From: Micromonospora sp. NBC_01740
GTDB taxonomy: Bacteria > Actinomycetota > Actinomycetes > Mycobacteriales > Micromonosporaceae
Reading direction: 5' to 3'
DNA: 64,000 bases
Assembly: GCF_035920365.1 (NCBI RefSeq)
Contig: NZ_CP109150.1
Span: forward strand, 1,054,001-1,118,000
The translations under genes were made by a program, and so were the position numbers. The notes beneath the pieces are model-generated. The model searched no databases. It was not told the origin of the DNA and worked only from the letters and a program-made list of their open reading frames with translations. Of the stretch, positions 34,746-61,898 are shown piece after piece; position 1 is the first letter of the stretch; each line of letters starts with the position of its first letter.

Positions 34746-35662
34746 CGGTCTCCTCCGTGGTCGGCGGTGCGGTCCGCCCGGCCGGCGCCGGCGTGGGCCG
34801 CCCGGGCCCCACCGGTGGCGGCGGGCGCCAGGCGGGGCGCGCCCGTGGCCTGCCAGACGGCGAGGGCGTCCACGGTGGCCCGGACGTCGTGCACGCGTAC
34901 GCCCCAGGCGCCGGCCGCCACCGCGAGCAGGCTGGTGGCGACGGTGGCCACGTCGCGGCCGTCCGTGGGGCGGGGGGTGCCGTCGGGACCGGCCAGCAGC
35001 CGCCCCAGGTACGACTTGCGGCTGGACGCGAAGAGCAGCGGGAAGCCGAGGTCCAGCAGCTCGGACAGGCGGGTGCTCAGTTCCCAGTTGTGCGCGGCCG
35101 TCTTGGCGAAGCCGAGCCCCGGGTCGACGACGATGCGGTCGGCGGCGACGCCGGCCCGCAGCGCCTCGTCGACGCGGCGGCCCAGCTCGGCGCGCACGTC
35201 GGCGACCACGTCGGCGTAGCGGGCCAGCTCACCCATCTCCCGGGAGTGGCCCCGCCAGTGCATGAGCACCCATGGGCAGCCGGCGTCGCGGACGACTCGG
35301 GCCATGTCGGGGTCGGCGAGGCCGCCGGAGACGTCGTTGACCACGGCCGCGCCGGCGGCGAGGGCCGCCTCGGCGACCCGTGCGCGGGTGGTGTCGATGC
35401 TGACCGGCACGCCGGCGGCGGTCAGTTCCCGGATCACGGGCACCACCCGGGCCGTCTCGGTCTCCGCGTCGACCCGGTCGGAGCCCGGCCGGGTGGACTC
35501 GCCGCCGACGTCCACCAGGTGGGCGCCGTCGGTCCGCAGCCGCACGCCGTGTCCGACGGCGGCGTCGAGGTCGGCGTACCGTCCGCCGTCGGAGAAGGAG
35601 TCGGGCGTGACGTTGAGGACGCCCATCACCACCGGGTCCGAGGCCCGTACCAGATCGGTCAC
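34742..35662 (-). CDS. folP: Dihydropteroate synthase
   Basis: FolP (306 residues) joins hydroxymethyl-dihydropterin pyrophosphate with p-aminobenzoate and is the sulfonamide target. It shows VMGVLNVTPDSFSDGGRY, HLVDVGGESTRPG, VVNDVSGG, VLMHWRG, DPGLGFAKTAAHNWELS and SRKSYLG, all in order. GTG 35662 is chosen because the first motif then sits at the usual distance, although no strong ribosome-binding site is seen. The C-terminal 25 residues are Ala/Gly-rich and unconserved. It is first of the folP-folB-folK set and divergent from the type IV secretion-like operon. Confidence 0.95.
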   Translation of the reverse strand: MTDLVRASDPVVMGVLNVTPDSFSDGGRYADLDAAVGHGVRLRTDGAHLVDVGGESTRPGSDRVDAETETARVVPVIRELTAAGVPVSIDTTRARVAEAALAAGAAVVNDVSGGLADPDMARVVRDAGCPWVLMHWRGHSREMGELARYADVVADVRAELGRRVDEALRAGVAADRIVVDPGLGFAKTAAHNWELSTRLSELLDLGFPLLFASSRKSYLGRLLAGPDGTPRPTDGRDVATVATSLLAVAAGAWGVRVHDVRATVDALAVWQATGAPRLAPAATGGARAAHAGAGRADRTADHGGDR

Positions 35663-36005
35663 GGCTAGACGGTACCGGTCGGCCGGAGCGCCCCGGACGG
35701 ACCGGGTCGAGGGCGATGACATGCGCATTCGAACGGGTGTACGATCGGTCGTCCCGGTCGGATCGGGCAGACTCTTCGCGGCTTGTCGCAAACAGTGGGT
35801 GCCCGTACGCTTTGGAACTGCCCGGCATCGAGATGGCGAAGCCTGGAGGGAGGGCCGAAGCGGGAGAATCCGCCCAAAGCCCACCACCCTCCGTGGTGGG
35901 TAACGAACGCAGGGTCGCCGACGCTGCGCACAGGGAGCACCGTTCCCGCCAGGCATGACTACTGCACCACCGCGGCGCCGCCGGCCGCGACTTGGGGAGG
36001 TTCCA
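35663..36005. other. Divergent regulatory region, folP / type IV-like operon
   Basis: A 343-bp gap. It contains the probable operon promoter at 35783-35811 and a downstream leader with three consecutive hairpins: GCGG/CCGC near 35859-35872, CCCACCAC (35880-35887) with GTGGTGGG (35893-35900), and CGCAG/CTGCG near 35908-35928. A near-match to a LexA half-site pair is at 35731-35742. No coding sequence is supported. Confidence 0.55.
35783..35811 (+). promoter_or_regulatory. Probable promoter of the type IV-like operon
   Basis: TTGTCG (35783-35788), a 17-bp spacer and TACGCT (35806-35811) form a plausible vegetative promoter. It predicts a leader of about 190 nt before the first gene. Confidence 0.5.
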
Positions 36006-36320
36006 GTGATCGCCATCGAGCTGATGGAGACGGCGACGTCCGCCGCCGCCCACACGCTCTCCGCCCTGGCGTCGACTCCACTCGCCGAGCCTGCGCCCAA
36101 GGGCATCGACACCGAGGGTGTCGTCACGTTCTTCGCCAGCAAGATCGCTCCGATCCTGCTGGCCGTGCTGGGCGTCATCTTCATCGGGCGCGCCAGCCGG
36201 GGTGAGATCTCCAAGGTCCTCACCAGCTCGGCGATCGCGATCGTCGGGCTCGCCTTCATCGCCGGAGCCGCCACACTCTTCTTCATCGGCGACTACCTGA
36301 TCGACCTGATCTTCGAATAG
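36006..36320 (+). CDS. Small two-TM pilin-like protein
   Basis: A 104-residue protein. The first 45 residues are Ala/Ser/Thr-rich, followed by helix FFASKIAPILLAVLGVIFIGRA (about 45-66) and helix LTSSAIAIVGLAFIAGAATLFFIGDYL (about 73-98), separated by a short basic turn RGEISK. This layout matches VirB2/TrbC-type subunits and small proteins that open Gram-positive conjugation operons. GTG 36006 has GGGGAGG 5 nt upstream; ATG 35955 lacks one. It is the first gene of the operon. The pilin assignment rests on topology and position only. Confidence 0.7.
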   Translation: MIAIELMETATSAAAHTLSALASTPLAEPAPKGIDTEGVVTFFASKIAPILLAVLGVIFIGRASRGEISKVLTSSAIAIVGLAFIAGAATLFFIGDYLIDLIFE

Positions 36321-36333
36321 GCGCGGGCACGAG

Positions 36334-36696
36334 ATGCGGCTGCGCACCGACGACGACATCTACCGGGCTCGCCTGGTCTACCTCGGGCCGCCCGGCTACA
36401 CCCTTCCCGTCCACCTGCCGTACGCCCAGTACGGGCTGTTCATGCTGCTCGTTCCCCTCTACATGTTCATCCACTGGCTGTTCACGTTGCAGGTCGAGCT
36501 CTTCCCCGCCTGGGAGATCGCGCTCGCCATCGTGAGCACCTCGTTCATCTTCCGGTACGTCGATCCGGACCGGCCCGCGCGCATGGTGATCCGCACCGCG
36601 CTGACCGACTGGCGACGGACCCGGGAGCCGGCCGCGGAGCAGCGGGACCCCCGCCTTGTCGGCAGTCGGATCAGGATCCGGGAGGAACTGGCATGA
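36334..36696 (+). CDS. PrgI/VirB3-like membrane protein
   Basis: A 120-residue protein with a cytoplasmic N-terminus, two adjacent helices (YGLFMLLVPLYMFIHWLFTL at about 33-52 and FPAWEIALAIVSTSFIFRYV at about 58-77) and a basic C-terminal tail. Size, two-helix hairpin and position immediately before a VirB4 ATPase are those of PrgI/VirB3/TcpE-type components. It starts 13 nt after the previous stop. Its stop overlaps the start of an 18-codon mini-ORF that has its own strong ribosome-binding site. Confidence 0.7.
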   Translation: MRLRTDDDIYRARLVYLGPPGYTLPVHLPYAQYGLFMLLVPLYMFIHWLFTLQVELFPAWEIALAIVSTSFIFRYVDPDRPARMVIRTALTDWRRTREPAAEQRDPRLVGSRIRIREELA

Positions 36697-36749
36697 CCGG
36701 TCGCACCCCGACCAGGCAGTCGAACGACGCGGATGAGGCGGTCGTATGA
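36693..36749 (+). CDS. 18-codon coupled mini-ORF
   Basis: ATG 36693 overlaps the stop of the upstream gene (ATGA) and is preceded at about 6 nt by GGGAGGAA. Its TGA at 36747-36749 overlaps the ATG of the VirB4 gene (again ATGA). The peptide is MTGRTPTRQSNDADEAVV, hydrophilic with no known motif. The double overlap and strong site suggest real translation, either as a functional peptide or as a device that couples VirB4 synthesis to the upstream gene. Confidence 0.5.
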   Translation: MTGRTPTRQSNDADEAVV

Positions 36750-39700
36750 ATCGCAGTTCCACGCCGGGTTCCCCGGCAGGGCGTCCGGCCGTCCCGCACG
36801 GTAACCGTGCGCGGTCGTTCGACTACCCTGACGATCCCGAGACGGACGAGGTCTCCCTCGACCCGGCCCTGGTGACGACACCCGGGCACGGTGGCGTGGG
36901 CGTCTTCCAGGCCCCCCGGCCGGCGCCACGCCGGACGCCGCCGCCGGCCGAGCCGCAACCCGCCGACAGCGCCGACATCGACTCGCCCTTCCTCGACCTG
37001 TTCGGCGGCACGCACCCCGGCGCGACCCGGCCGACGGCACCCCCGCAGCGGGCCGGCGGGCGGGAGCAACCCGCCATCGGCCAGCAGCCGCCCGCCGCCA
37101 CGCCAGCCCCGGCGGCGCTCCCGCCGGCTCCCGCCCCCCTTCCGCCGCCCCCACGCGCGGGTCACGGGGCCGACGCCCACCGGACCGGCCACCCGGCCGA
37201 CGCGGCTCCCCGGACCGGCCAGCCGGCCCACCGGACAGCCCCGGGGGTGACGGCCGCCGACCAGCCCCCGGCCGACGCGTACGAGCCGCCCGCCCGAGCG
37301 GCCAGGTCCCGGGTACCGCACCAGTCCGGGGACCGGCTGCCCACGCTCCGCCCACTGGCGGAGGCAGAGGACGTGCCGCCCGTCGCGGCGGCACCGCCGA
37401 CGTCCCACCCGGCGCCCCGCCAGCACGCGGCACCGCTCGACCCGCCCGCGCCGGACCCGGCGTCCGAGCCGACATCCCGCCGCACCGGGGAGCGCCCGCC
37501 GGAGCGGGCCGGCCGGGAGGTGGCGCCGCCGCGCCAGCGCTCCGCCGGCCGGCGCGACCAGCCCGTCAAGCCCACCAAGCCCACCCGGGTCAAGCCGCCG
37601 AAGATCAAGTTCGGGGACCGGGACCCGGCGGTCGAGCTGGCCATCACCGAGATCGCCGGCCACCTGACCTTCACCCCCAACACCGTCACCGCCTGGTACT
37701 GGCTGCCCGAGGTGCGCTGGGCGTTCCGGCCGGACGCCGAACGGGAGGCGCTGCTCTCGGCGATCTCCGAGCAGTACGCCGGCCTGGCCGGCTTCCGCCT
37801 GCACCTGCGGCGCACCACGCGGCCCTTCCCGGCCGACGAGTGGGCCCGCACCATCGACGCGCACACCGCCGCGCCGCTGCCCGACGTGCCCGGCACCGCC
37901 GGCTGGGGCGACCACCTCGTGGCCGCGCAGCGGCACCTGCTCTCGGTCAACCACGCCGAGGGGCAGACCTACCTCGGCGTCACCTTCGCCCGGCGCGCCC
38001 TCGGCGACTCGCTCACCGAGCGGCTGCTGCGCACCTTCGGCCGGGGCGTCGCCGAGGGCGAGCGCCGCAAGCTCGGCCGCACCGTCGAGCAGTTCGACGA
38101 GGTGCTGGGCGCATTCGGCATGCGCGGCCGGCGGGTCACGGCACAGGAACTGGAATGGCTGCTCTACCGCTCGGTGGCGCTCTGCATGGCGCCGCCCGGT
38201 CAGCTCTCCCCGCTCACCGACGGGCAGTGGGAACGCGGCGACCTGCTCGCCCTCACCGAGCAGGTCGAGCGCTACCGCACCCCGTACGGCTCGACCGTCA
38301 AGCTGGTCAACCGGATGACCGGCGAGGAACGGCACGTCGCCGTGCTGGCGGTCGGCCGGATGGAGCCCCTGGAGATCCCCGAGCGGCACGAGCCCTGGCT
38401 GCACTTCCACGAGCGGCTGCCGTGGCCGATGGAGCTCTCCACCCGCGTCGACATCCTCGGCTCCGGCGACTCCTTCCGTAACCTGGAGCACCGGCTGCGG
38501 ATGATCCGCTCCCAGCAGCTCGACTACGCGGAACACGGCATCGACGCCCCGCCCGAGCTGGAGCGGCTGGCCAAGCGCGCCCTCGTCATCGGCGACGAGA
38601 TGACCACCGGGCTGCCGGTCGACTCCGCCCGCGCGCACGGCTGGCACCGGATCGCCGTCGGCGGCCGCAACCGCGAGGAGTGCCTGGAGCGGGCCCGCCG
38701 GCTGATCCAGCTCTACTCCCGCGAGCTGCGGATCTCGCTGCAACACCCGAAGAACCAGGACTGGCTGGCCCGCGAGTTCATCCCCGGCGAGCCGATCGCC
38801 AACACCGGCTACGTCCGGCGGATGCCGGTCAACCTGCTCGCCGCCGCGCTCCCCCAGGCCGCCTCCACCGTCGGCGACCGGCGCGGCGACCTCATCGGGC
38901 GCACCGCCGGCACCTGCCGCCGGCCGGTCTTCCTCGACCTGCACTTCCCGATGGAAGTACGCGAACGCTCCGGGCTCGCCGTCTTCGTCGCCGAACCGGG
39001 CGGAGGCAAGTCCACCCTGCTCGGCGCACTCGGCTACCTCGCGGCCCGACGCGGGGTCCAGGTGACGCTGCTCGACCCGTCCGGCCCGCTCGCCCGGCTC
39101 TGCGCCATGCCGGAGCTCCGGCCGTACGCGCGGGTGCTGAACCTGACCGGCTCCGAGCACGGCACCCTGGCCCCGTACTCGCTCATCCCGACGCCGCTGC
39201 GCAGCGAGTTCGGCACCGGGGCCTCGGGCGACCGGGAGTTCGAGATCGCGGTCTCCAACGCCCGCGCCGAGCGGCGGATGCTGGTGCAGGACATCTGCAT
39301 GATGCTGGTGCCCCCGCAGGTCGCCCGGGAGGCGTCCACCGCCACCCTCTTCCGGCACGCCGTACGCCAGGTGCCGGCGGAGGAGACCTCCACCCTGGAC
39401 GACGTGGTCGCCTGCCTCAGCCAGCTCGACGACGACGCCGGCAAGGAACTGGCCAACCTGCTGCTCGACACCGCCGAGATGCCGCTGGCCATGCTCTTCT
39501 TCGGCCGCCCGCCGGAGGGACTGCTCGGCGCGGACGCCGCCCTCACCGTGATCACCATGGCCGGGCTGCGACTGCCCGACCTGAAGATCGAGCGGGAGTA
39601 CTGGTCCGCCGAGGAGGCGCTGGCTCTGCCGATGCTGCACACCGCGCACCGGCTCGCCGTACGCCGCTGCTACGGCGGCTCGATGTCGTCGCGGAAGCTG

Positions 39701-40165
39701 GTCGGCCTGGACGAGGCGCACTTCATGGAGGGGTGGCGCTCCGGACGGTCGTTCCTGGTCCGGCTCGCGCGCGACTCCCGCAAGTGGAACCTCGCCGCGC
39801 TGGTCGCCTCGCAGAACCCGCGGGACATCCTCGGCCTCGACGTGCAGAACCTGGTCTCGACCGTCTTCGTCGGCCGGATCGCCGAGGACGCGGAGATCGC
39901 CTCCGAAGCGCTCCGCCTGCTGCGGGTGCCGGTCAACGACGGCTACGAGGCCACCCTGGCCTCCCTCTCCACCGCCGACGCCACCAGTTCGAGCCGGCTC
40001 GGCTTCCGGGAATTCGTCATGCGGGACGTCGACGGCCGGGTGCAGAAGGTCCGGGTCGACGTCTCGTACGTCGACGGGCTGCTGGACCACCTCGACACCA
40101 CCCCCGCCGCGATCGCCACGGCGGCCGGGGTGCTGCCGGCAATCCTGCCGAACATGGAGGCGTGA
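36746..40165 (+). CDS. VirB4/TraC-family type IV secretion ATPase
   Basis: A 1139-residue protein. Residues 1 to about 275 are Pro/Ala/Arg-rich and probably disordered, an unusually long extension. From about 285 it follows the VirB4 plan: an N-terminal CagE/TrbE/VirB-like domain, then a RecA-like motor with Walker A AEPGGGKST (749-757), Walker B VGLDEAHF (Asp989, Glu990) and an SRKWNLAALVASQNP segment. Such ATPases energise pilus or channel assembly and substrate transfer in type IV secretion. It is coupled by overlap to the mini-ORF and followed one nucleotide later by the TrbL-like gene. No VirD4-type gene adjoins. Confidence 0.88.
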   Translation: MNRSSTPGSPAGRPAVPHGNRARSFDYPDDPETDEVSLDPALVTTPGHGGVGVFQAPRPAPRRTPPPAEPQPADSADIDSPFLDLFGGTHPGATRPTAPPQRAGGREQPAIGQQPPAATPAPAALPPAPAPLPPPPRAGHGADAHRTGHPADAAPRTGQPAHRTAPGVTAADQPPADAYEPPARAARSRVPHQSGDRLPTLRPLAEAEDVPPVAAAPPTSHPAPRQHAAPLDPPAPDPASEPTSRRTGERPPERAGREVAPPRQRSAGRRDQPVKPTKPTRVKPPKIKFGDRDPAVELAITEIAGHLTFTPNTVTAWYWLPEVRWAFRPDAEREALLSAISEQYAGLAGFRLHLRRTTRPFPADEWARTIDAHTAAPLPDVPGTAGWGDHLVAAQRHLLSVNHAEGQTYLGVTFARRALGDSLTERLLRTFGRGVAEGERRKLGRTVEQFDEVLGAFGMRGRRVTAQELEWLLYRSVALCMAPPGQLSPLTDGQWERGDLLALTEQVERYRTPYGSTVKLVNRMTGEERHVAVLAVGRMEPLEIPERHEPWLHFHERLPWPMELSTRVDILGSGDSFRNLEHRLRMIRSQQLDYAEHGIDAPPELERLAKRALVIGDEMTTGLPVDSARAHGWHRIAVGGRNREECLERARRLIQLYSRELRISLQHPKNQDWLAREFIPGEPIANTGYVRRMPVNLLAAALPQAASTVGDRRGDLIGRTAGTCRRPVFLDLHFPMEVRERSGLAVFVAEPGGGKSTLLGALGYLAARRGVQVTLLDPSGPLARLCAMPELRPYARVLNLTGSEHGTLAPYSLIPTPLRSEFGTGASGDREFEIAVSNARAERRMLVQDICMMLVPPQVAREASTATLFRHAVRQVPAEETSTLDDVVACLSQLDDDAGKELANLLLDTAEMPLAMLFFGRPPEGLLGADAALTVITMAGLRLPDLKIEREYWSAEEALALPMLHTAHRLAVRRCYGGSMSSRKLVGLDEAHFMEGWRSGRSFLVRLARDSRKWNLAALVASQNPRDILGLDVQNLVSTVFVGRIAEDAEIASEALRLLRVPVNDGYEATLASLSTADATSSSRLGFREFVMRDVDGRVQKVRVDVSYVDGLLDHLDTTPAAIATAAGVLPAILPNMEA

Positions 40166-40166
40166 C

Positions 40167-42134
40167 ATGGCGCGGGCCCGGGCACGGTTGGCGGCGTTCC
40201 TGCTCGCGCTCGGCGTACTCGCCGGGGCCACGATCGGCTGGCCGGCCGTCGGCGCCATGGCGGCCGCCCCCGCACCGCTGACCGCCCAGGCGAAGGCCGA
40301 GCTCTGCACCACGCCGGAGTGGCAGGCCGACTTCCGCGCCTGCGTCGCCAAACTGAAGGAAGTCGCCGACTCAGAGGTCAAGTGCCGGAACGCCCCGACT
40401 CCCGGTGCGCCCGACTCGGGGCTCGCCGGCTGGTTCGCGTCCCGCCCGGAGTCGGCCACGAAGCCGGGCCCGAAGGGCTTCTACAGCGACTACGGCTACG
40501 CCGGATACAGCTACTCCACGTACGACATCGACAGCGGTTGCGCGACCGCGGTGCTGCACCCCGACTACAAGTTCACCAACACGGTCGCCAATGGCGAGTT
40601 CATGATCGCCACGGCGATCGTGGGCGCCTCGAACGCGCTGCGGGAACGCGCCTGGGATCCGCGCTCGATGTGGGGCTGGGCCGATCCGTTGGTGGACCAG
40701 GCGACCAAGGCCGTCTACCAGAAGGTGTTCAGCGTCTTCGGCATCGTCACGCTGTGCGTGGTCGGCCTGTACCTGCTCTGGCGCTCCCGCCAGTCGGACA
40801 TGAGCAACGCGATGACCACGGCGGGCTGGGCCCTGCTGGTGATGGTGGCGGTGACCGCCCTGGCCGCCTGGCCGGTCAAGTCGGCCAACATCGCCGACGG
40901 CACCCTCGTCACCACCCTGGGCGTGGTCCACGACGCGGTCGGCCCGGCCACCAAGGACACTCCTCCAAGTCAATGCGACGACCCAAATCCGGAGGCGTGC
41001 AAAGACAACCGGCCTCCCGCCGTGCGGGCCAGTGACACGGCCACCGAGGCGATGCTCTACCGCAACTGGCTGCGGGGTGTGCTCGGCTCGGCGGACAGCG
41101 AGACCGCGAAGAAGTACGGTCCGGCCCTCTACGACGCGAAGTCGCTCTCCTGGGAGGAGGCGGCAAAGCTCCGGTCGAATCCGGCCACGCGAGAGGCCAC
41201 CATCAAGGCCAAGCAGCAGCAGTGGGCGCGGGTCGCGCAGCAGATCGAGGCCGAGGACCCGGAGGCGTACGAGTATCTCCAGGGCGTCCGGGACATGGAC
41301 CGGGTTGGCTCCGGATTCATCGCGGTGCTGGCCGCCGTGCTCTTCGCGATGTTCGACCTGACCGCCTCGCTGCTGGTGCTGCTGGGCTTCCTGATCTTCC
41401 GCTGGGCGGTGATCGCCGCGCCGATCCTGGGCACGGTGGGCCTGATGCGCCCGGCCAGCGCCGGGTTGCGGCGGTTGGCGAACGCGGTGGTCGCCGCCGT
41501 CTTCAACATCGCCATCTTCGGCACCGGTGCCGCCATCTATCTCTTCGCGGTCGACCTCATCATGAGCACGCCGACCCTGCCCGGCTGGCTCCAGGTGGTG
41601 CTGGTATGGCTCTGCGGTGTGGTCGGCTGGCTTTTGCTGCGTCCCTATCGACGGATCACCCAGCTGGGCGGCAAGGACAGCAGCGAGGCGGTCAGCTCGG
41701 CCGGCTCGTGGCACCGGCGATTCTTCCGGGACATGCGCACCGCCGCCCGGCTCGACGTCGCTGAACCCGGCGGCACGGCCGAGCCGGCGATGGGCCGGCG
41801 TCGGGCTGTCGTGGCGGAGCAGCCCACCCTCCGGCCCGAGGCCCGGCGCGAGGATCCAGCGCACGCCGCCACCCGCGGTGGGCATGCCGCCAAACCCGGC
41901 GGAGAGGAGCGGCAGCGGCCCGACGGCCGCGAGTCGGCCGCCGAGAAGGGGGCGCCCTCCGAGGAAAAGGATGCCTCCCGCCCGGTCGCCCCTCGACCCC
42001 GGCGGCGGCAGCCGGCCACCTGGACGGAGCCGGACGTGCCGGACGAGAACCCCTCGTTCGTCATCTACCGTCCCGGGTCCACGGAACGCGAGCCCGACCG
42101 GCCCACTCCCCGGATCCGCTCAGAGGCGCGGTGA
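40167..42134 (+). CDS. VirB6/TrbL-like polytopic membrane protein
   Basis: A 655-residue protein. It has a signal-like first helix (about 8-32), an outside Cys-containing region with Tyr/Ser-rich FYSDYGYAGYSYSTYD, helices near 185-205 and 215-240, a second soluble loop, then a bundle of four helices between about 385 and 490. A basic, Pro-rich cytoplasmic tail of about 150 residues follows. The arrangement fits VirB6/TrbL channel proteins of Gram-positive type IV systems. A less GC-rich patch (about 40950-41020) encodes the SQCDDPNPEACKDN loop. Its stop overlaps the next start as GTGA. Confidence 0.75.
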   Translation: MARARARLAAFLLALGVLAGATIGWPAVGAMAAAPAPLTAQAKAELCTTPEWQADFRACVAKLKEVADSEVKCRNAPTPGAPDSGLAGWFASRPESATKPGPKGFYSDYGYAGYSYSTYDIDSGCATAVLHPDYKFTNTVANGEFMIATAIVGASNALRERAWDPRSMWGWADPLVDQATKAVYQKVFSVFGIVTLCVVGLYLLWRSRQSDMSNAMTTAGWALLVMVAVTALAAWPVKSANIADGTLVTTLGVVHDAVGPATKDTPPSQCDDPNPEACKDNRPPAVRASDTATEAMLYRNWLRGVLGSADSETAKKYGPALYDAKSLSWEEAAKLRSNPATREATIKAKQQQWARVAQQIEAEDPEAYEYLQGVRDMDRVGSGFIAVLAAVLFAMFDLTASLLVLLGFLIFRWAVIAAPILGTVGLMRPASAGLRRLANAVVAAVFNIAIFGTGAAIYLFAVDLIMSTPTLPGWLQVVLVWLCGVVGWLLLRPYRRITQLGGKDSSEAVSSAGSWHRRFFRDMRTAARLDVAEPGGTAEPAMGRRRAVVAEQPTLRPEARREDPAHAATRGGHAAKPGGEERQRPDGRESAAEKGAPSEEKDASRPVAPRPRRRQPATWTEPDVPDENPSFVIYRPGSTEREPDRPTPRIRSEAR

Positions 42135-42688
42135 GCGCGGTGCGGCGGGCGATCGAATTCCTGGTGACCCGGGTCCTCCGGTCCCGGATCGGCATCGCGA
42201 TCGGCATCGCCGTCCTCGTGTTCGGGATCATCGGAGCGGCACGGCTGGTCTCCGGGCCCGGTGACCCCACCTCCGGGCTCAGCAACCGCCCCAACCAACC
42301 GATCACCACGGTCGACCCGACCGCCGGCGACGACGGGGCATTCTCCACGGGCGCTCCCCCCTTCCCCGTCACCCGCCCCGGCGAACTCACGCCGGAGCAG
42401 ACCGCCGCACGCTTCGTCGCCGCCTGGCTCGGCAAGCCGGGCACCACGGCAGAGCAGTGGCAGGAGGGCCTACGTCCCCTCTCCACCCCGGTGCTGACCG
42501 ACAAGCTGGCCGGCGCCGACCCGTCCGGGGTGCCGACCGGTCAGGTCGACGGCGACGTCACTCTCCGGCCCCGGGCCGAGAACTTCGTCGAGGTGCTGGT
42601 TCCGCTCGACACGGGTCAGCTCCGCCTCGAACTCGTGGCGCCCGACGGGCGATGGCTGGTGGATGCCGTGGACTGGGAGCAGAAATGA
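42131..42688 (+). CDS. VirB8/TcpC-like single-TM protein
   Basis: A 185-residue protein with a short basic cytoplasmic segment, one helix (about 20-39), a Pro/Thr linker, and an NTF2-like alpha+beta domain: TPEQTAARFVAAWLG helix, conserved W..GLRPL, and strands ending LRLELVAPDGRWLVDAVDWE. This is the topology of VirB8/TcpC scaffold proteins. GTG 42131 overlaps the previous stop and its own stop overlaps the next gene (ATGA), so it is tightly coupled within the operon. Assignment is by topology and context. Confidence 0.7.
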   Translation: MSAVRRAIEFLVTRVLRSRIGIAIGIAVLVFGIIGAARLVSGPGDPTSGLSNRPNQPITTVDPTAGDDGAFSTGAPPFPVTRPGELTPEQTAARFVAAWLGKPGTTAEQWQEGLRPLSTPVLTDKLAGADPSGVPTGQVDGDVTLRPRAENFVEVLVPLDTGQLRLELVAPDGRWLVDAVDWEQK

Positions 42689-43851
42689 GCGACGGGACGC
42701 GACCGCGCGGTCGACAGCTCCGACTCGGCGCACTGGCCGCCGCGTTGACGGCAACGCTCGCCCTGCTCTGCTGCACCGGCGGCGCGGGGGCCTTCTTCCT
42801 CACGGAACTGGGCGGCGAGTCCACGGACATGACCCCGGTGAGCATGGACTGCAAGGAGAACTACCGGGTCGATGTTCGTGGCAAGATCCCTCGGATGTCC
42901 GGCTACGGTCAGGTCCAGCTTCGTAACGCCGCTCGGATCATCAAGGTCGGGCAGGAGATGAAGGTGCCGCCGCGCGGATGGGTGATCGCCGTGGCGACCG
43001 CCATGCAGGAGTCCCGGCTGCGCAACCTGGCGAACCGGACCGTCGGCGAGTCCGAGGACATCCCCAACGAGGGGGTCGGTGCCGATCACGACTCCGTCGG
43101 GCTGTTCCAGCAGAGGGCGAGCTGGGGCACCGTGGCGCAGCGGATGACGCCCGAGTACGCCGCCCGGAAGTTCTACGAGAAGCTGGTCAAGGTGCCCGGC
43201 TGGGAGACGATGCCGCTGACCCGGGCCGCGCAGGCCGTGCAGATCAGCGCCTTCCCGGACGCGTACGCCAAACACGAGGACGTGGCCAGCCAGATCGTCA
43301 ACGCGCTGGCCGGCGGAGCTGCCCGGATCGCGCTGATCGACGGTAGGAAGGCCTGCGACCGCGCCGCCGCCGGGCAGATAGCCGCCTCGGGCTGGACGGC
43401 TCCCATCCCCGGCGGCGTCGGCTCGGGCTTCCAGACCGCAAGCCGTCCCATGCACAACGGGGTCGACATCGCCGCGCCGAAGGGCACCGATATCCGGGTA
43501 GCAGCCACCGGACGCGTCCTGATCTCCCGGTGCGACCCGGACAAGAGAGGCCGGCGCACCTGTAACGTCGACGGCTGGCCGAACAAGGGCGGCTGCGGCT
43601 GGTTCGTCGACGTCCTGCACGCCGGTGGGTTCATCACCCGCTACTGCCACATGGTCAGCAAGCCCCGGGTCAAGGTCGGCCAACTCGTCGAGGCCGGCAC
43701 GGTCATCGGCGAGGTGGGCAGCAGCGGCAACTCCTCCGGCCCCCACCTCCACTTCGAGGTGCACGAGGACGGAGACAGGAGCAGCCGGGGGGCCATCGAC
43801 CCGGTGCCGTTCATGCGATCGCGCGGCGCGCCACTCAAGGGCGCGGAATGA
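42685..43851 (+). CDS. Bifunctional lysozyme-like / LytM (M23) cell-wall hydrolase
   Basis: A 388-residue protein with an N-terminal membrane anchor or signal (about 11-38). The first domain is lysozyme/transglycosylase-like, with Glu109 in TAMQESRL and SVGLFQQR at 137-144. The second is an M23 endopeptidase with zinc ligands His257 and Asp261 (MHNGVDIA) and HLH at 354-356. Pairing of SLT-like and peptidase domains is typical of VirB1/PrgK/TcpG hydrolases that open peptidoglycan for type IV secretion. Cysteines in the insert between the M23 motifs may form disulfides. It ends the overlapping run. Confidence 0.88.
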   Translation: MSDGTRPRGRQLRLGALAAALTATLALLCCTGGAGAFFLTELGGESTDMTPVSMDCKENYRVDVRGKIPRMSGYGQVQLRNAARIIKVGQEMKVPPRGWVIAVATAMQESRLRNLANRTVGESEDIPNEGVGADHDSVGLFQQRASWGTVAQRMTPEYAARKFYEKLVKVPGWETMPLTRAAQAVQISAFPDAYAKHEDVASQIVNALAGGAARIALIDGRKACDRAAAGQIAASGWTAPIPGGVGSGFQTASRPMHNGVDIAAPKGTDIRVAATGRVLISRCDPDKRGRRTCNVDGWPNKGGCGWFVDVLHAGGFITRYCHMVSKPRVKVGQLVEAGTVIGEVGSSGNSSGPHLHFEVHEDGDRSSRGAIDPVPFMRSRGAPLKGAE

Positions 43852-43864
43852 GACGCTCGCCGTC

Positions 43865-44467
43865 ATGAGCGACCCGCTTCCCGACCCGTTCGCCGACCAT
43901 CCGGACTGGGCGCCCCGACCGCCCCGACCGATCGAGATCGTGCCGGCCACCGGGCGCGTCGAGCTCCGCGGGCAGCGCGTGCTGGTCGGCCTGCCCGGAC
44001 TCGGCTGGCGCGGTGACCTCCGCGCCGACGACCGGGTAGTGCAGGGCAGCCGGACCTACGTGCCGGTCATCCCCGAGCACGAGTGGTACCGGGCGGAGTC
44101 CGACCAGGTGGAGGTCTTCGCGCCGCTGGTCCCGGTCGAGCGGGTCTGGGTGGAGACGGTGGGGGCCCGGCGACCGGACGCGTCGGTGGATCGCGAGACG
44201 GGCGTCCGCCTGGTCTCGCTGGACGCCCCGCCGCACCGCGCCCCGACCCCGGTCTTCGAGTCGCACGCCGTCACGGGCCGCCGGGTGGTGCACGTGGTGG
44301 AGTCCGTCGAGCACCGGGACCTGCGTGCCGTCACCGAGACCTACTCCGGCGCGGAGGGCGACATCTGCGTCCGGGTTGCGCCGGAGGTGGAGTGGTACCG
44401 CTGGGCCTGGCGGGGCCAGCCACCAACCACACTGGAGGTTCCTGTGCATCTGCTCTGGATCGAGTGA
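43865..44467 (+). CDS. Unknown soluble protein downstream of wall hydrolase
   Basis: A 200-residue protein without signal or membrane segment, rich in Val, Arg, Glu and Trp. It appears beta-rich, with two repeated segments ending in WYR (HEWYRAESDQVEVFAPLVPVERVWVE and VEWYRWAWRGQPPTTLEVPVHLLWIE), suggesting internal duplication. It starts 13 nt after the hydrolase stop and is probably in the same transcript. No family is recognised. It is convergent with the next gene, with only 3 nt between stops. Confidence 0.65.
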   Translation: MSDPLPDPFADHPDWAPRPPRPIEIVPATGRVELRGQRVLVGLPGLGWRGDLRADDRVVQGSRTYVPVIPEHEWYRAESDQVEVFAPLVPVERVWVETVGARRPDASVDRETGVRLVSLDAPPHRAPTPVFESHAVTGRRVVHVVESVEHRDLRAVTETYSGAEGDICVRVAPEVEWYRWAWRGQPPTTLEVPVHLLWIE

Positions 44468-44470
44468 CGG

Positions 44471-45034
44471 TCAGCCGGCCTTACGGCCACTACAGACCCG
44501 CCAGCCTTCGTCTCTTTCCACCACATCGAAGACCCAGTCCTCACGCCTGCTGCTACGGGGCTGGCCGTTGGCTGAGCCGGAGATGGTGAGCGTTGTGGCA
44601 ACTGATTCGCCCTCGCTCGTCTCAGTTCGGGTGAGCGGCCCCCAACTGACTCTGACCACGACGCCGAAGTTGGCCTCACGCTGCTCGATCTCGCTACGCA
44701 GTCCGAGGACCCCAGCCCGATCGCCGCTTCCCTCGCAGGTGAAGAGGTCGGCGCGGGTGTCGTTGCGGTCCACGAGGAAGGCGCGGAGGTAGTTGTCCAC
44801 CACCACGTCGGGCGCGCTGCGGTCCGGGGCCGCGGCCCGGTTGTAGAGCACGAATCCGGCGGCCACTCCGCCGAGGCAGAGTGCCGCGACAACGCTCGCG
44901 ACCACGGTGACCATGGTGCGCAGCCGCCGCCGTGGCCGCTCCGGCACCGGGGCCGGCGAGGGCGGCGCCAGGTGGTCGGAGGGGGGCCGTTGCGCCGGTA
45001 CGCGGGAGACCTGGGAACCGGCGGGGGGCTGCAC
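44471..45034 (-). CDS. Second single-TM, NTF2-like protein
   Basis: A 187-residue protein: a Pro-rich cytoplasmic N-terminus of about 38 residues, one helix (VTVVASVVAALCLGGVAAGFVLY), then an extracytoplasmic domain beginning with VVDNYLRAFLVDRNDTRADLFTCEG and ending DWVFDVVERDEGWRVC, like NTF2/VirB8-type or lumazine-binding-like domains. GTG 45034 is preferred (GAGG about 10 nt upstream); GTG 45043 is possible. The 3' half is less GC-rich than its neighbours. It faces the type IV-like operon and is divergent from the FtsK-like gene. Confidence 0.65.
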   Translation of the reverse strand: MQPPAGSQVSRVPAQRPPSDHLAPPSPAPVPERPRRRLRTMVTVVASVVAALCLGGVAAGFVLYNRAAAPDRSAPDVVVDNYLRAFLVDRNDTRADLFTCEGSGDRAGVLGLRSEIEQREANFGVVVRVSWGPLTRTETSEGESVATTLTISGSANGQPRSSRREDWVFDVVERDEGWRVCSGRKAG

Positions 45035-45238
45035 TGATTCCACCCTCTGAGGCTAGCGGCTGGACGCGGTAGACCCAATGCCCCAGATCCAGCGGATCGT
45101 GACGGACCACTCCCCATCGGTGAGTTCCACGACATCCCCGGCGCAGTGCCGCCGCGCATCCCGGACGAGTCGGCCCGACTGGGTTACGGTCTCTGCGCGG
45201 GGAGGGGTTGCCGACCTCGGGCGGAGGGGGTGGACGCG

Positions 45239-47779
45239 GTGGCCGGTCCGAAGGCACGCACCAACCGCGCCGCCGCACTGCACCGGCGGGCCGCTGCCAC
45301 CGCGACCGCCGCCGCGAGCGTCCTCGACGACACCCGGCCCGTTCCCGCCGACCAGCGCCGCCAGTACGAACTGGCAGACCGCCTCCGTTCGGCGGCGGCG
45401 GTGCTGGCCCCCGGTTGGGCGGGCGCTCCCCTGGAGACGGTGGCACCGGCCACACCGGCCGGTGAGGGGCCACCTCCCTTCGTCCGGGTCGGTACGGCGG
45501 CACCGCTGGACGACGCCCGGTTCCCCGCGCTGGTGCCGTTGCTCGGCACGGGTCACCTCTCGGTGGACGTGGACGCCCGGGATCCCCGGGTAGCGGGGCT
45601 GCTGCGGGGCGTACTGCTGCGGCTGTTGGCGGCGAGCCCGGCCGGGGCGCTGCTGGTCCGCGCGGTGGACGCGACCGGCTCGGCCCTCGCGCCGTTCGCG
45701 CCGCTCGCGGACGCGGGTTTGCTGCCGCCCCCGGCGGTGGACGTGGCCGGGCTGCGGGCCGTGCTCACCGAGGCCGAGCAGTGGGTGACCCCGGGGTCGA
45801 GCGGGCGACGCCGGCACGACCGGACGCTGCTGCTGGTGATCGCCGCGCTGCCCGAGTCGACCGGTCCCACCGACCTGGCCCGTATCGAGGCCCTGGCCGA
45901 GCCGGACCGGTCCGCAGGGCTGCACCTCGTGGTGGCGGGCTGGCCCCCGGCAGGCGACCGGGAGCCGCTGCCGCGCGCGACGACGCTGGCGGTCCGGACC
46001 GCGTACGCGCTGCTGGGTGACCCGCCGGGCGGGTCGTTCGCCGGCCCGGGTGCCGAGCCGCCGGGCGGGCTGAACTCGCCGGTCTTCATCGAGGCGGATC
46101 CGCCGGCCGAACTCGTCGACGCGGTCTGCCATCGGCTGGCCGCGCAGGTGGAGGCGGGTTCCCGGCTGGCGCTGACCGACCTGCTGCCGGCGGCCGACGA
46201 GGAGCTGTGGACGGCGAGCGGGGTGGGCGGGCTGACCACGACCGTCGGGGACGCCGGTGGCCGTCCCGTGTCGCTCGGCTTCACGGAGCTGACGCCGCAC
46301 TGGCTGGTCAGCGGCCGCTCGGGCACGGGTCGCTCCACGTTCCTCACCACCGCGCTGCTCGGCCTGACCGCCAGGTACGGCCCCGACGAGCTGGCTCTCT
46401 ACCTGGCGGATCTCGCCGACGCCGAGTCCTTCGTGGAGTTCCTCCAGACCGAGCGGGACCGGTCGTGGATCCCGCAGGTGCGGGCCGCCGCGATGGCCGC
46501 CGACCGGGAGTACGTGCTGAGCCTGCTGGACGAGCTGGTGGCGGAGGTACGCCGGCGCGAGGAGGCGGGCAGCCGGGCCGGCGGGCAGCGCTTCGCCGAG
46601 CTGCGGCAGCACCGGGCCATGCCCCGGATCGTGTGTGTGCTCGACAATCTCCCGTTGCTCTTCGCCGAGCGGGACCGGCTGGCCGCCGACGCCACCGCCC
46701 GGCTGGACGCGCTGGCCCGGACCGGGCGCGCGTACGGGGTGCACCTGGTGCTGGCCGGCGAGGGCGACCTGGGGTTGGGCTCACGTACGGACCGGGACTC
46801 GGTGCTGGGGCAGTTCCCGGTGCGGGTGGCGCTGCCCGGTGGGGGCGCCGTGCTGGAGCCGACGAACGACTCTGCCGCCGGGCTGCCGGTGGGCAGCGCG
46901 GTGGTGAACACCGCAGGCGGGCTCGGCGGGCCCCGGGGCGCGATCCGGGGGCACGAGCGGATGGTCCGGTTCCCGGATCCGCAGGATCACCCCGACACGG
47001 TGGAGGCGCTGCGGCACCGGCTCTGGTCGGCCCGCCCGGAGGGGGCCACCCCGCCGGTGGTCTTCGCCGGCTACGCCCGCCCGCTCCTGCGCAACGATCC
47101 CCGGCACCGGGCCGCGCTCGCCGGGCAGGCGCCCGGTCCCGCCGCCCTGCTGGGTCGGGCGGTGGACGTGCCCCGGAGCACCGTCGCCGTGTCGCTCGGG
47201 CCGGCCCCGGGGCGGAACCTGGCCGTGCTCGGTCCCGGGCCGGAGGCGGCCCGGCTGCTGGTCACCGCGGCGCGCAGCGTGGCGGTGCACCACGCGCCGG
47301 GGGCCGCCCGCTTCGTGCTCGCCGCGCCGGACGAGGAGTGCCGGCCGGTGGCCGAGGCGTTGGCGACCGAGCTGGCCGGGCGGCATCCGGTGGACATAGT
47401 GGACCTGACCGGCCTGCTCGCCGCCGTGGACGACGCCGTGCCGGCCTACCTGGTGGTCTTCGGGCTGGACGTGCCGACCCCGGAGCAGCTGCCTCCGGAG
47501 CGGCTGCGCGCGCGGCTGCTGGAGGGCCCGCCCGCCGGCCGGCACCTGCTGGGCCGCTGGCGGACGGTGCCGTCGTTCGCGGCGCTGCTCGAACCCGAGG
47601 GCGAGGTGGACAAGCTCGCCGCCGTGGCCGTGGTGGACCTGCCGGGTGCGCAGCTGACGTCGGTCTTCGGGCGGCAGGTGCAGTGGCGGCCCCGCCCCGG
47701 CCGGGCGGTGCTCTGGGACGGTCCCGGCGAGCAGGGCATCGTGCTGGTCCCGTTCGGCGAGGAGGGGGAGCCCGGATGA
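45239..47779 (+). CDS. FtsK/SpoIIIE-like protein with degenerate ATPase motifs
   Basis: An 846-residue protein with no transmembrane helix. The central domain resembles FtsK/SpoIIIE/EccC motors: LTPHWLVSGRSGTGRSTFLTTALLGL. The P-loop reads GRSGTGRST (359-367) with Arg365 where Lys is invariant, and the Walker B region VCVLDN (Asp469-Asn470) lacks the catalytic Glu. A second, weaker domain (LAVLGPGPEAARLLVTAARSV) lacks a P-loop lysine altogether. GTG 45239 has GGAGG about 9 nt upstream. It overlaps the next gene by ATGA. It may be a scaffold or substrate receptor rather than a motor. Confidence 0.75.
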   Translation: MAGPKARTNRAAALHRRAAATATAAASVLDDTRPVPADQRRQYELADRLRSAAAVLAPGWAGAPLETVAPATPAGEGPPPFVRVGTAAPLDDARFPALVPLLGTGHLSVDVDARDPRVAGLLRGVLLRLLAASPAGALLVRAVDATGSALAPFAPLADAGLLPPPAVDVAGLRAVLTEAEQWVTPGSSGRRRHDRTLLLVIAALPESTGPTDLARIEALAEPDRSAGLHLVVAGWPPAGDREPLPRATTLAVRTAYALLGDPPGGSFAGPGAEPPGGLNSPVFIEADPPAELVDAVCHRLAAQVEAGSRLALTDLLPAADEELWTASGVGGLTTTVGDAGGRPVSLGFTELTPHWLVSGRSGTGRSTFLTTALLGLTARYGPDELALYLADLADAESFVEFLQTERDRSWIPQVRAAAMAADREYVLSLLDELVAEVRRREEAGSRAGGQRFAELRQHRAMPRIVCVLDNLPLLFAERDRLAADATARLDALARTGRAYGVHLVLAGEGDLGLGSRTDRDSVLGQFPVRVALPGGGAVLEPTNDSAAGLPVGSAVVNTAGGLGGPRGAIRGHERMVRFPDPQDHPDTVEALRHRLWSARPEGATPPVVFAGYARPLLRNDPRHRAALAGQAPGPAALLGRAVDVPRSTVAVSLGPAPGRNLAVLGPGPEAARLLVTAARSVAVHHAPGAARFVLAAPDEECRPVAEALATELAGRHPVDIVDLTGLLAAVDDAVPAYLVVFGLDVPTPEQLPPERLRARLLEGPPAGRHLLGRWRTVPSFAALLEPEGEVDKLAAVAVVDLPGAQLTSVFGRQVQWRPRPGRAVLWDGPGEQGIVLVPFGEEGEPG

Positions 47780-48540
47780 CCCGTGGCGGGGCACGGACCA
47801 CGACGGGGCACGCCGCGCCGGGGCGGCAGCGTTCCGGCGCCGACCCGACGCCGGAACGCGCCGACACGGCCGGGCAGGCAGAGAGCGTCGGGGGCGTCGA
47901 CCCGGTGCGGACCGCGTGGACCGAATACCTCGCCGCCGCCCGCCAGCTCGACGGGGTACGCCGCGACGCGGCCACCGCCGCCGGCGAGCAGGCCCGGTCG
48001 GTGCAGGCCGCCCGCGAGGAACTGACCGCCGTACGCACCCGGCTGGCGTCGCAGGAGGCCCGGCTGCACGAGCGGGGCGTACCGCCGATCTCGCTGGTCC
48101 CGACGCCGCCGGAGCTGACCGAGGCGACCCGGGCGATGGCGGGCGGGCCGGCGGCGGTGCTGGCCGCACTGCGCACCGCCCGGGGCCGGGCGGACGCCGC
48201 GGACGCGACGCTCGCCGCGCGTGGGCTGCCCCGCCTGGCCGCCTGGCCGCCGCGCCTGCGGAACCTGCTGGTGTACGGGCCGCTGGCGCTGCTGGTGCCG
48301 GCGATCCAGCTGGTGTTGTTCGTGACGACCGGCACCGGGGCGGCGAGCGTGGCCGCGCTGGTCTGCGGGCTGCCGATGCCGGCGGTGGCGTTCGTGGCGG
48401 GCTGGATCGGCGTCGGGCGGCTCTTTCCGCCGCCGGCGGGTGGCCGGGTGGAGCGCACGGCCCGGCTCGGCGCCCTGGTGTGCCTGGTCCCGGCGGTGCT
48501 GGTCAGCGCGGGCCTGTTGCTCGCGATGCTGGCCGGCTGA
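47776..48540 (+). CDS. Coiled-coil membrane protein
   Basis: A 254-residue protein. The first 45 residues are polar and Gly/Thr-rich. A long helical, coiled-coil segment (WTEYLAAARQLDGVRRDAATAAGEQARSVQAAREELTAVRTRL) runs to about residue 100. Three hydrophobic helices follow (about 170-190, 193-215 and 231-253), the last at the extreme C-terminus. It is translationally coupled to the FtsK-like gene, so the products probably act together at the membrane. No family is recognised. A bidirectional terminator follows. Confidence 0.7.
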   Translation: MTRGGARTTTGHAAPGRQRSGADPTPERADTAGQAESVGGVDPVRTAWTEYLAAARQLDGVRRDAATAAGEQARSVQAAREELTAVRTRLASQEARLHERGVPPISLVPTPPELTEATRAMAGGPAAVLAALRTARGRADAADATLAARGLPRLAAWPPRLRNLLVYGPLALLVPAIQLVLFVTTGTGAASVAALVCGLPMPAVAFVAGWIGVGRLFPPPAGGRVERTARLGALVCLVPAVLVSAGLLLAMLAG

Positions 48541-60379: not shown

Positions 60380-60421
60380 ACGGGCCCGGGGGCCGCTCAG
60401 CCGAGCAGCCCCCGGGCCCGT
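60380..60421. terminator. Bidirectional terminator, ppa / eccD
   Basis: ACGGGCCCGGGGGC (60380-60393) pairs perfectly with GCCCCCGGGCCCGT (60408-60421). The right arm overlaps the last codons of eccD, so the hairpin serves both convergent genes. Confidence 0.75.
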
Positions 60422-61797
60422 TCGTACAGGTCGAGCACCGCGCAGGCGACGGGCACCACCGACACCACCAGGGCGGTGTCGGCCAGGTCCGCGATCCGGC
60501 CGACGTACGGGGAGACCGGGCGGCGGGCGTACGTGGTGCCGGCGACCACCGCCACCAGGGCCAGCGCCAGCCCGCCGACGACCAGCGTGAGGCGGCCGGT
60601 CGGGCCGGAGCGCCCGACGAGCACGGCGCCCAGCACGGCGTACCCGGCGAGGCCGGCGACGACGGTCGGCACCCGATGGCGCAGGGACACGAACAGCCGG
60701 GAGCGGAGCAACAGCACGGCCGCGGCCACCGCCACCAGCAGCCGGCCGGCCGTCCCGCCGGAGAGGCCCAGCACCACCGCGGCGGCGACCGCCAGCACGG
60801 CGTGCCCGAGCAGCATCCCGGTGAGCATCTCCTCGGTGCGGGCCACCGCCGCGTAGACCCGGTCCCGGTCCGGCAGGTCGCGGACCCGGTCGGCGTCGCC
60901 CGGCTCGCCGGTGGGCAGGGTGATCGGGGGCAGCGGCACCTTCCCGAGCCGGATGGCCAGCAGCGGCACCGCCCCCACGGCGAAGACCAGCACGCAGAGC
61001 AGAATCGCCGCCGTGCCGGCCGGGCTGAGCAGCAGTCCGCCGAGGGCCGCCAGCGCGCCCACGAACCCGGCGGTGGCGCCCGCCACGAAGACCCGCAGCC
61101 GGGTGGCGACGCCGACCAGCCCGAGCACCGACACCAGCAGCAGCGCCACCGACCCGGCGAGCAGCTCGGGCGCGCCGACCCAGCGCAGCCCCGGGACCGG
61201 CCCGACCGGATCGCCGGAGCTGACCGCCAGGGCGCCCGCCGCCGCCGCGTACGGCAGGGCGTAGCCGCCCAGGGTCGCGCCGGCGGCCCCGTCCGCGTGG
61301 GCGCGGGACGCCACCACCCCGGCGAGGGTGAGCAGGAGCGCCACCACGGCGGCGGCCGGCCAGGCCGACCCGTACGCCGGACCGCCGGCCGTCACGGCGA
61401 GCAGCCCGACGGCCAGCGGCACGGCGGCCCCGGCGAGGGCGGCGGCCCGGGTGGCGGCGGGTGACCACGCCCCGCCGCGCCGCCGGGCGCCGTCGGCGAT
61501 CGCCTCGACCACGTCGTCGTACTCCAGCTCGGGCCACTGCGCGCGGGCCGGCACGAGGTGCAGCACCTCGCCGTCGCGGACCCCCTGCGGCAGCAGGGCC
61601 TGGGCGGTGGTCAGCACCGCGCCGTCGGTGCGCCGCAGCACCCAGCCGCCGTGCCGCTCGCCGTCGTCGGCGAGCCCCTCGCCGGCGTGCCGCAGCACCT
61701 CGGGCAGCAGCTCGGCCAGGGGCACCTGCTCGGGCAGTGCGACGTCGACCCGCCGCTGGGGGGCGCTGATGGTGACCCGGGCCAGCCCGATCGTCAT
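60397..61797 (-). CDS. eccD: Type VII secretion integral membrane protein EccD
   Basis: EccD forms the membrane pore of ESX (type VII) systems. The 466-residue protein has an N-terminal ubiquitin-like domain (about 1-85; VTISAPQRRVDVALPEQVPLAELLPEVL and DGEVLHLVPARAQWPELEYDDVVEAIAD), then about eleven hydrophobic helices, ending ARGLLG. It is divergent from eccC with 101 bp between them, so both can be fired from one intergenic region. Substrate WXG100 genes are not in the visible part. Confidence 0.93.
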   Translation of the reverse strand: MTIGLARVTISAPQRRVDVALPEQVPLAELLPEVLRHAGEGLADDGERHGGWVLRRTDGAVLTTAQALLPQGVRDGEVLHLVPARAQWPELEYDDVVEAIADGARRRGGAWSPAATRAAALAGAAVPLAVGLLAVTAGGPAYGSAWPAAAVVALLLTLAGVVASRAHADGAAGATLGGYALPYAAAAGALAVSSGDPVGPVPGLRWVGAPELLAGSVALLLVSVLGLVGVATRLRVFVAGATAGFVGALAALGGLLLSPAGTAAILLCVLVFAVGAVPLLAIRLGKVPLPPITLPTGEPGDADRVRDLPDRDRVYAAVARTEEMLTGMLLGHAVLAVAAAVVLGLSGGTAGRLLVAVAAAVLLLRSRLFVSLRHRVPTVVAGLAGYAVLGAVLVGRSGPTGRLTLVVGGLALALVAVVAGTTYARRPVSPYVGRIADLADTALVVSVVPVACAVLDLYERARGLLG

Positions 61798-61898
61798 CGA
61801 CTGATCTCCATGTTCGGCGGGATTGGTGGCTGCGCGGACGACAGGACTTTACCTACCATGAGCCAGGCTCGGGTTACCGAGCGCTGTCAGGAGGTCGA

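Follow-up and report, generated by a model that had tools for sequence, protein, structure and literature searches.

A VirB4 gene cluster resident in Streptomyces was described in 2009 as cmdABCDEF (SCO4126-4131 of Streptomyces coelicolor). According to that paper (PMC2782261), deletion of cmdB or of the whole cluster delays aerial growth, shortens spore chains, and yields anucleate spores; the cmd deletion also leads to chromosome-segregation defects and to more actinorhodin, and it leaves the transfer of an SLP2-derived plasmid unchanged. The same source reports the cluster from several Streptomyces and finds that three of its genes resemble SLP2 conjugation genes. Mutants in tgdA, a neighbouring transglycosylase gene, and in cmdBCDEF both produce more antibiotics (PMC6585502). 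For cmdB, induction during development has also been reported. The present text concerns a locus at positions 36006-48540 of a 64,000-nucleotide stretch of the Micromonospora sp. NBC_01740 chromosome (NZ_CP109150.1, 1,054,001 to 1,118,000; hereafter, the window), which resembles cmd in being chromosomal, in combining a VirB4-like motor with membrane proteins, and in having a wall-hydrolase gene alongside (PMC2782261 and PMC6585502). We consider this locus, with high confidence, to be a resident, domesticated type IV channel. That the channel serves hyphal development is, by analogy, put at slightly better than an even chance, and the full reading (a conjugation-derived channel, vertically inherited, without relaxase and coupling protein, and serving the development of its host) is favoured with similar reserve.

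Other described systems share some of these features. The VirB8-like protein of the locus, w5, has the predicted NTF2-like fold of VirB8, as do PrgL and TraM of the Enterococcus pCF10 and pIP501 systems. The pCF10 and pIP501 systems are mobile and carry a relaxase and a coupling protein. A Gram-positive-type channel that serves the cell's own life is found in the Saccharibacterium Southlakia epibionticum, whose type IV system is essential; unlike the Micromonospora, this organism is an epibiont, its system includes six pilins of the VirB2 type and a component resembling VirD4, and the two are likened by description only (PMC12857230). In Frankia, a single VirB4 was reported in 2008 to be conserved in three strains, and the authors doubted that such genes make up a significant export pathway (PMC2266912). 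For the Micromonosporaceae locus itself, the papers that were followed offer only the annotation of a single virB4 gene in Micromonospora lupini, which occupies one table row and a sentence (PMC4182475); this gene is probably that of locus L170, the candidate match.

The genes of the locus, termed w1 to w10, and a promoter-like element before them are as follows (hydrophobic segments of w4 and w10 from a hydropathy script).

35783-35811, plus strand: promoter-like element TTGTCG-N17-TACGCT upstream of w1, conserved in an alignment of 64 upstream regions including that of the window.
36006-36320, plus strand: w1, VirB2/pilin-like, 104 amino acids (aa), two hydrophobic segments.
36334-36696, plus strand: w2, PrgI/VirB3-like, 120 aa.
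36746-40165, plus strand: w3, VirB4-type ATPase, 1139 aa.
40167-42134, plus strand: w4, VirB6/TrbL-like polytopic membrane protein, 655 aa, 7 hydrophobic segments.
42131-42688, plus strand: w5, VirB8-like bitopic protein with an NTF2-like domain, 185 aa.
42685-43851, plus strand: w6, VirB1-like cell-wall hydrolase, muramidase-like at residues 73-204 and Peptidase_M23 at residues 256-365.
43862-44467, plus strand: w7, soluble accessory protein, 201 aa, in which one small beta-barrel domain is repeated in tandem.
44471-45043, minus strand: w8, one hydrophobic segment, weakly similar to the Rv0361 family, in convergent orientation to w7.
about 45146-47779, plus strand: w9, FtsK/EccC-like P-loop protein, Walker A lysine replaced, true start uncertain.
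47776-48540, plus strand: w10, three C-terminal hydrophobic segments.

In the open reading frames of the window, nine of the ten genes are on the plus strand and w8 alone is on the minus strand. They are bordered by folP/folB/folK/DUF3180 on the left and by folE/ftsH/hpt on the right, and these flanking genes are all minus-strand genes. The genes w1-w6 form an operon (36006-43851), followed by w7-w10 (43862-48540). Third-position GC is high for most of the ten, the core recurs in the loci fetched from relatives, and median ratios of nonsynonymous to synonymous substitution (dN/dS) are 0.09-0.45, so these are not chance reading frames. An earlier note on this DNA, made from the letters alone, had proposed a type IV-like gene run at this place with folate genes on both sides. 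The run is there, its first six reading frames being homologous to plasmid operons and conserved in the fetched loci, and so are folP/folB/folK to the left and folE to the right. The word "overlapping" used for it fits w4-w6 and w9-w10, the other genes being separated by short gaps, and w8, whose strand the note did not give, is on the minus strand. For w10, the note read a putative coiled coil.

Good recognition by Pfam and NCBIfam is limited to the w3 ATPase and, in w6 and w9, to the M23 and P-loop domains respectively, with w8 recognised weakly, and the type IV reading was therefore tested by other means, including comparison with plasmids of Streptomyces sp. NEAU-S7GS2 and Nonomuraea sp. 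NBC_00507 and with pVAPN1571 of Prescottella (Rhodococcus) equi. The operons of these plasmids have the order of the window: VirB2-like, PrgI, VirB4, VirB6, VirB8-like, hydrolase. At its first position, w1 matches two of the three plasmid proteins weakly (E 1e-3), and with a hidden Markov model, E is 1.6e-5 against pVAPN1571 and 5e-3 against the Streptomyces plasmid; from this weak homology and its position, w1 may be the VirB2-like subunit. The matches of w2 to its three counterparts are clearer (E 6e-6 to 1e-7), and those of w4 run from 9e-21 to 1e-48. The ATPase w3 matches PF12846 at 1.7e-23 (the TcpF model falls far under its cut-off) and is 32-37% identical to the plasmid VirB4s; unlike these, it has an N-terminal extension of about 280 aa, rich in proline, alanine, arginine, and glutamate, outside the region that aligns with them. 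Its Walker A (AEPGGGKST) and Walker B (LDEAH) motifs are intact. The hydrolase w6 matches PF01551 at 9.8e-25 and the muramidase 8b2e at 6e-23, whereas the plasmid hydrolases are annotated as NlpC/P60, C40, and M23-type. Homology or fold thus establishes the VirB4 motor, PrgI/VirB3, VirB6, VirB8, and the hydrolase; all these parts of the Gram-positive minimal channel, the VirB4 having both Walker motifs, are identified.

Matches to PF12846 occur in 115 of 121 Micromonosporaceae genomes (a count that takes in some VirB4s of another type), in 105 of the 107 of good quality, and in 42 of 44 genera, mostly once per genome. From these places, 40 loci were fetched, selected for genus coverage and deliberately including three loci of the second VirB4 type (L056, L058, and L063), where most of the core is absent. 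The genes w1, w2, and w4 are each present in 37 of the 40, w3 and w5 in 38, and w6 in 39, and the 37 core-bearing loci span 33 genera. GGGKST and LDEAH are retained in all 38 rows of the window VirB4 type; in w6, the H.G.D motif is found in 39 of 40 sequences, that of the window included. H[LI]H[FLW]E occurs in 34 of the 40; of the six sequences that lack it, five have H-x-H at the corresponding place. The genes w7 (31 loci), w8 (29), w9 (22), and w10 (21) are less tightly tied to the locus than w1-w6 and are accessory genes; the 18 loci without w9 include the three second-type loci and some stretches cut by region ends. folP adjoins the operon in 31 of the 40, folP and folB are inverted in three of these 31, and folE is present in 21 of the fetched stretches. 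Six loci (L039, L041, L045, L047, L048, and L059) have no folate neighbours and form one clade with support of 1.0.

Of 262 relatives that a scan turned up among named genomes, 80 were kept, from Micromonospora, Actinoplanes, Dactylosporangium, Salinispora, Asanoa, Phytohabitans, Plantactinospora, Virgisporangium, Planosporangium, and Rugosimonospora, among others. The whole order from DUF3180 to ftsH is found in 44 of the 80. Where the locus is longer than 21 kb (58 cases), folP, w1, and w2 are each present in 57 and w3-w7 in all; w8 is present in 57, w9 in 53, w10 in 52, and folE in 49.

Selection was assessed from the median dN/dS between the window genes and those of the named loci, pairs with dS outside 0.1-1.5 being dropped. 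The medians are 0.217 for w1 (n = 64), 0.088 for w2 (n = 63), 0.195 for w3 (n = 79), 0.187 for w4 (n = 72), 0.344 for w5 (n = 75), 0.340 for w6 (n = 76), 0.160 for w7 (n = 71), 0.388 for w8 (n = 59), 0.350 for w9 (n = 67), and 0.454 for w10 (n = 60), as against 0.245 for folP (n = 63), 0.311 for folK (n = 62), 0.322 for DUF3180 (n = 62), and 0.126 for folE (n = 56). The operon is under purifying selection: w2 has the lowest value of the ten, and w1-w4 and w7 are at or under the value of folP. Moreover, for w1, w2, and w4-w10, the distances between loci are correlated with the distances in folP, folK, and DUF3180 (r 0.75-0.94; 60 loci; none of 499 permutations as high), as do those of w3 once its low-complexity N-terminus is trimmed (0.39 at full length, 0.93 after trimming; 62 loci). 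Since the folate markers are linked to the operon, this correlation shows the descent of the whole block.

The genome, a single contig of 7,317,348 bases, has one AAA_10 match but no match to the VirD4 profile PF02534 and none to the TrwC relaxase profile PF08751, other relaxase classes not having been searched. Pfam reveals no integrase among the ten proteins of the locus, the remaining window and genome lying outside that search, and no convincing pair of att-like direct repeats brackets the locus between 35300 and 49300. One candidate pair (22 nt, 82%, at 35401 and 48137) was set aside, as its members lie inside folP and w10 and look like chance. VirB4 finds a match in 146 plasmid records, none of them at least 60% identical, and in no phage record; in the best 120 of 1502 matches, the named rows that are 95-100% identical to the window VirB4 are Micromonospora (or Verrucosispora) proteins. 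With near family-wide presence, a fixed locus, and no close plasmid record, a sporadic, mobile distribution is not the case. The earlier note had preferred a resident machine to an active integrative element, and this preference is borne out by the near family-wide presence, the lack of VirD4 and TrwC matches, and the lack of bracketing repeats. The folP-folE comparison and the genome search that it had proposed point the same way: in the long loci, the operon is anything but sporadic, and neither VirD4 nor a TrwC relaxase was found. Its equation of the gene set with a minimal Gram-positive type IV channel holds for VirB3, VirB4, VirB6, VirB8, and the hydrolase and fails for the coupling protein (no PF02534 match).

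The channel probably derives from the conjugation machinery of a plasmid or integrative conjugative element of actinobacteria, which would have moved to the chromosome. In such a channel, the VirB4 ATPase, docked on VirB3, VirB6, and VirB8, would extract and assemble the VirB2-like subunits and would drive a substrate across the membrane, and the muramidase/M23 hydrolase would open the thick cell wall at the channel site. Its role would lie in hyphal differentiation, spore formation, and the placement of chromosomes at septation rather than in plasmid transfer; this developmental role is proposed for the Micromonosporaceae, themselves a sporulating family, by analogy with the cmd operon of Streptomyces.

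A number of points weigh against this reading. The role itself rests on analogy, and the system that supplies the analogy differs from the window in its gene order and in its VirB4, which is shorter and apparently split; CmdB and the window VirB4 give no tblastn match at E 0.01, and CmdB matches no family profile. The conserved element TTGTCG-N17-TACGCT looks vegetative rather than developmental, and a search of the literature found no expression or mutant data for the locus. As for vertical descent, the markers used are folate genes linked to the operon. The dN/dS values of w5, w6, and w8-w10 (0.34-0.45) exceed that of folP. There are exceptions to the gene order: folP, w1, and w2 are absent from the 10 kb upstream in L162, and w9, w10, and folE from the 10 kb downstream in L122 and L137, one-sided breaks in named Micromonospora that may reflect rearrangement or an assembly fault; in the two Planosporangium loci, folE follows w8, without w9 and w10; L112 has no w10 match and L115 no w8 match. 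As for origin, the three plasmid operons are presumed, from their parts, to transfer DNA, and PLSDB types two of the plasmids as non-mobilizable and one as mobilizable. In the VirB4 tree, the Micromonosporaceae proteins group with those of plasmids (support 1.0), apart from the clade of a Nonomuraea-related family (f17) considered below; the basal branch of the Micromonosporaceae clade is supported at only 0.248, and the direction from plasmid to chromosome depends on midpoint rooting.

One alternative is a resident protein-secretion machine that exports enzymes, toxins against neighbours, or wall hydrolases, either to the outside or into other cells. The 89K system of Streptococcus suis provides a Gram-positive precedent for protein export (PMC12857230), and a wall hydrolase is present within the operon. 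However, the S. suis system has a VirD4, which finds no match in this genome, and no effector-like gene is recognised at the locus; we regard this alternative as unlikely.

Another possibility is a machine that donates chromosomal DNA between hyphae, with w9 or an FtsK/EccC protein of the host as the coupling motor. It draws on the homology with plasmid operons. Near these operons, the plasmids encode a protein that has an FtsK/SpoIIIE domain and hydrophobic segments at its N-terminus, and pVAPN1571 is typed MOBF; this genome yielded a counterpart of neither. The candidate motor w9 matches PF01580 at 3.2e-16, and the genome has other FtsK-family proteins (12 PF01580 places in eight open frames, including frames of 570 and 564 aa). 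However, the hydropathy script finds no N-terminal membrane anchor or hydrophobic segment in w9, and a comparison at E 1 gives no match between w9 and the FtsK proteins of the plasmids. These plasmid proteins match one another at 32-38% identity, and no FtsK-family frame of the genome is close to the three; the matches amount to a weak one to an EccC (E 1e-5 and 2e-6, for two of the three). The Walker A position of w9 reads GRSGTGRST in the window. The earlier note had called the protein degenerate, which is correct for the window and its genus and for eight of 22 homologues; the Walker lysine is kept in 12 of the 22, which favours a donor machine, and the remaining two do not align. Since w9 is degenerate in the window genus and was not found in 18 of the 40 fetched loci, and since the TrwC relaxase has no match in this genome, such a machine seems more doubtful still. 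The assignment of w9 to a type VII EccC was also rejected: only the P-loop domain is recognised, the EccC models fall far below their cut-offs, and the N-terminal hydrophobic segment is missing.

A third alternative is a DNA-uptake machine with parts comparable to those of ComB of Helicobacter pylori. ComB works without a relaxase and VirD4. A set of parts without VirD4 and TrwC matches, in which the motor and hydrolase motifs are intact, is consistent with uptake, an idea that we hold to be improbable. Finally, a decaying integrative element or random remnant with no present function, to which the degenerate w9 and the fast w8 and w10 (0.39 and 0.45) might point, can practically be dismissed, given a core found in 33 sampled genera with intact motor motifs, dN/dS at or under that of folP in w1-w4 and w7, and no convincing att-like repeats.

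The resident, conjugation-derived channel of the Micromonosporaceae can be set beside other VirB4 systems of the class. A class-wide search gave matches in 67 of 246 genomes; per-family totals being unavailable, the counts that follow are of genomes listed with a match. In one genus (g65), 21 genomes have one match each, covering profile positions 14 or 15 to 290, in open frames mostly of 471-555 residues (with outliers of 633 and 1086). Four of these loci were opened (L075-L078). The ATPase of L075 has 475 residues and neighbours that fit the cmd cluster; its Walker A lysine is residue 90, the position mutated in CmdB by Xie and colleagues (PMC2782261), and K404, the second residue that they mutated, is not a lysine here. 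On the strength of the residue 90 lysine and the gene arrangement, the g65 loci are taken as Streptomyces cmd. At 8225-9784 of L075, a CmdC-like protein of 519 aa looks like a fusion of a PrgI-like segment with the N-terminal half of a VirB4, so that CmdC and CmdB would together be one split VirB4. Plasmid relatives of CmdB reach about 50% identity and none reaches 60%.

The Nonomuraea-related family f17 has 21 genomes listed, with one match each and a VirB4 longer than CmdB. In seven opened loci, the VirB4 and VirB6 profiles match in all seven (adjacent in six), VirB8 in three, and VirB2 in two; the PrgI profile matches in none of the seven, and PrgI is assigned there by reading alone. The nearest named record is that of Nonomuraea gerenzanensis (NZ_LT559118, 11.85 Mb, 89% identity), in which the L085 operon is found complete, its seven genes in the same order. 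Unlike the window, the f17 type has a VirB4 only about 28% identical, on a separate branch of the tree, and an SLT+NlpC/P60 hydrolase. In this tree, from which CmdB is absent, the f17 clade goes with the second-type locus L058 (support 0.966-0.993), and both the Micromonosporaceae and the f17 clades have long stems and short crowns, a pattern which suggests what two separate domestications would leave.

It is conceivable, as a tentative generalisation, that spore-forming mycelial actinobacteria have repeatedly and independently domesticated plasmid conjugation machines for development, with VirB4 as the sole motor and no coupling protein. In this scheme, domestication would have occurred at least once in the Micromonosporaceae and once in the Nonomuraea-related family, as their separate tree positions indicate, and probably also in Streptomyces, to judge from gene order. 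Nocardiopsis plasmids, however, carry VirB4s 71-74% identical to the f17 type, which is therefore not only resident, and this lowers the probability given to repeated domestication. Relative to the described systems, it is new that the locus is fixed in nearly the whole family, that the channel is fuller, that a coupling protein is missing, and that the tree positions are separate. A near family-wide channel without recognised transfer genes provides a testable case of the use of such a channel to its owner, and it places the cmd operon in a wider pattern. In genera such as Micromonospora, Salinispora, and Actinoplanes, a single deletion could show what the function is; if repeated domestication were true, resident VirB4-only systems would constitute a distinct functional class.

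A related operon in another family (f20, genus g110; L090, 8142-15997) has PrgI, a VirB4 38% identical to that of the window, VirB6, VirB8, and an M23 hydrolase, together with a single-domain relative of w7 and nearby genes that encode a solute-binding protein and an oxidoreductase; it is possibly another resident case. Within the Micromonosporaceae, L056, L058, and L063 represent second, distantly related VirB4 loci found in some members. In the genus of L056 (g23), this second type is alone among the PF12846 matches, which suggests that it has replaced the resident system there. In L041 and L059, which are among the loci without folate neighbours, w7 is present and a convergent small gene alongside it may be w8. 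As regards the accessory proteins, the resemblance of w7 to Tudor/SH3-like domains comes from weak matches only, and w8 matches NF051431 at 1.1e-6, under the cut-off of that model.

Upstream of w1, a stricter consensus promoter scan listed not TTGTCG-N17-TACGCT but another site, at 35716-35745. This promoter-like match is overlapped by TCGAACGGGTGTACGA (35729-35744, between folP and w1), which is partly conserved in the 64 aligned upstream regions and which we take to resemble an actinobacterial LexA (SOS) box. The leader of w1 contains an inverted repeat, CCCACCAC-CCTCC-GTGGTGGG, at 35880-35900, which is also partly conserved in the upstream alignment and has no match in Rfam. Downstream, a type VII (ESX) cluster seems to start about 12 kb from the locus (window 60397-64000 and beyond), with an EccD-like open reading frame, assigned from its sequence, at 60397-61797 and an FtsK/EccC-type open frame of 1363 aa near 63.2 kb that extends past the end of the window. 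Another FtsK/EccC-type frame, this one 1355 aa long, is found around genome position 2.07 Mb.

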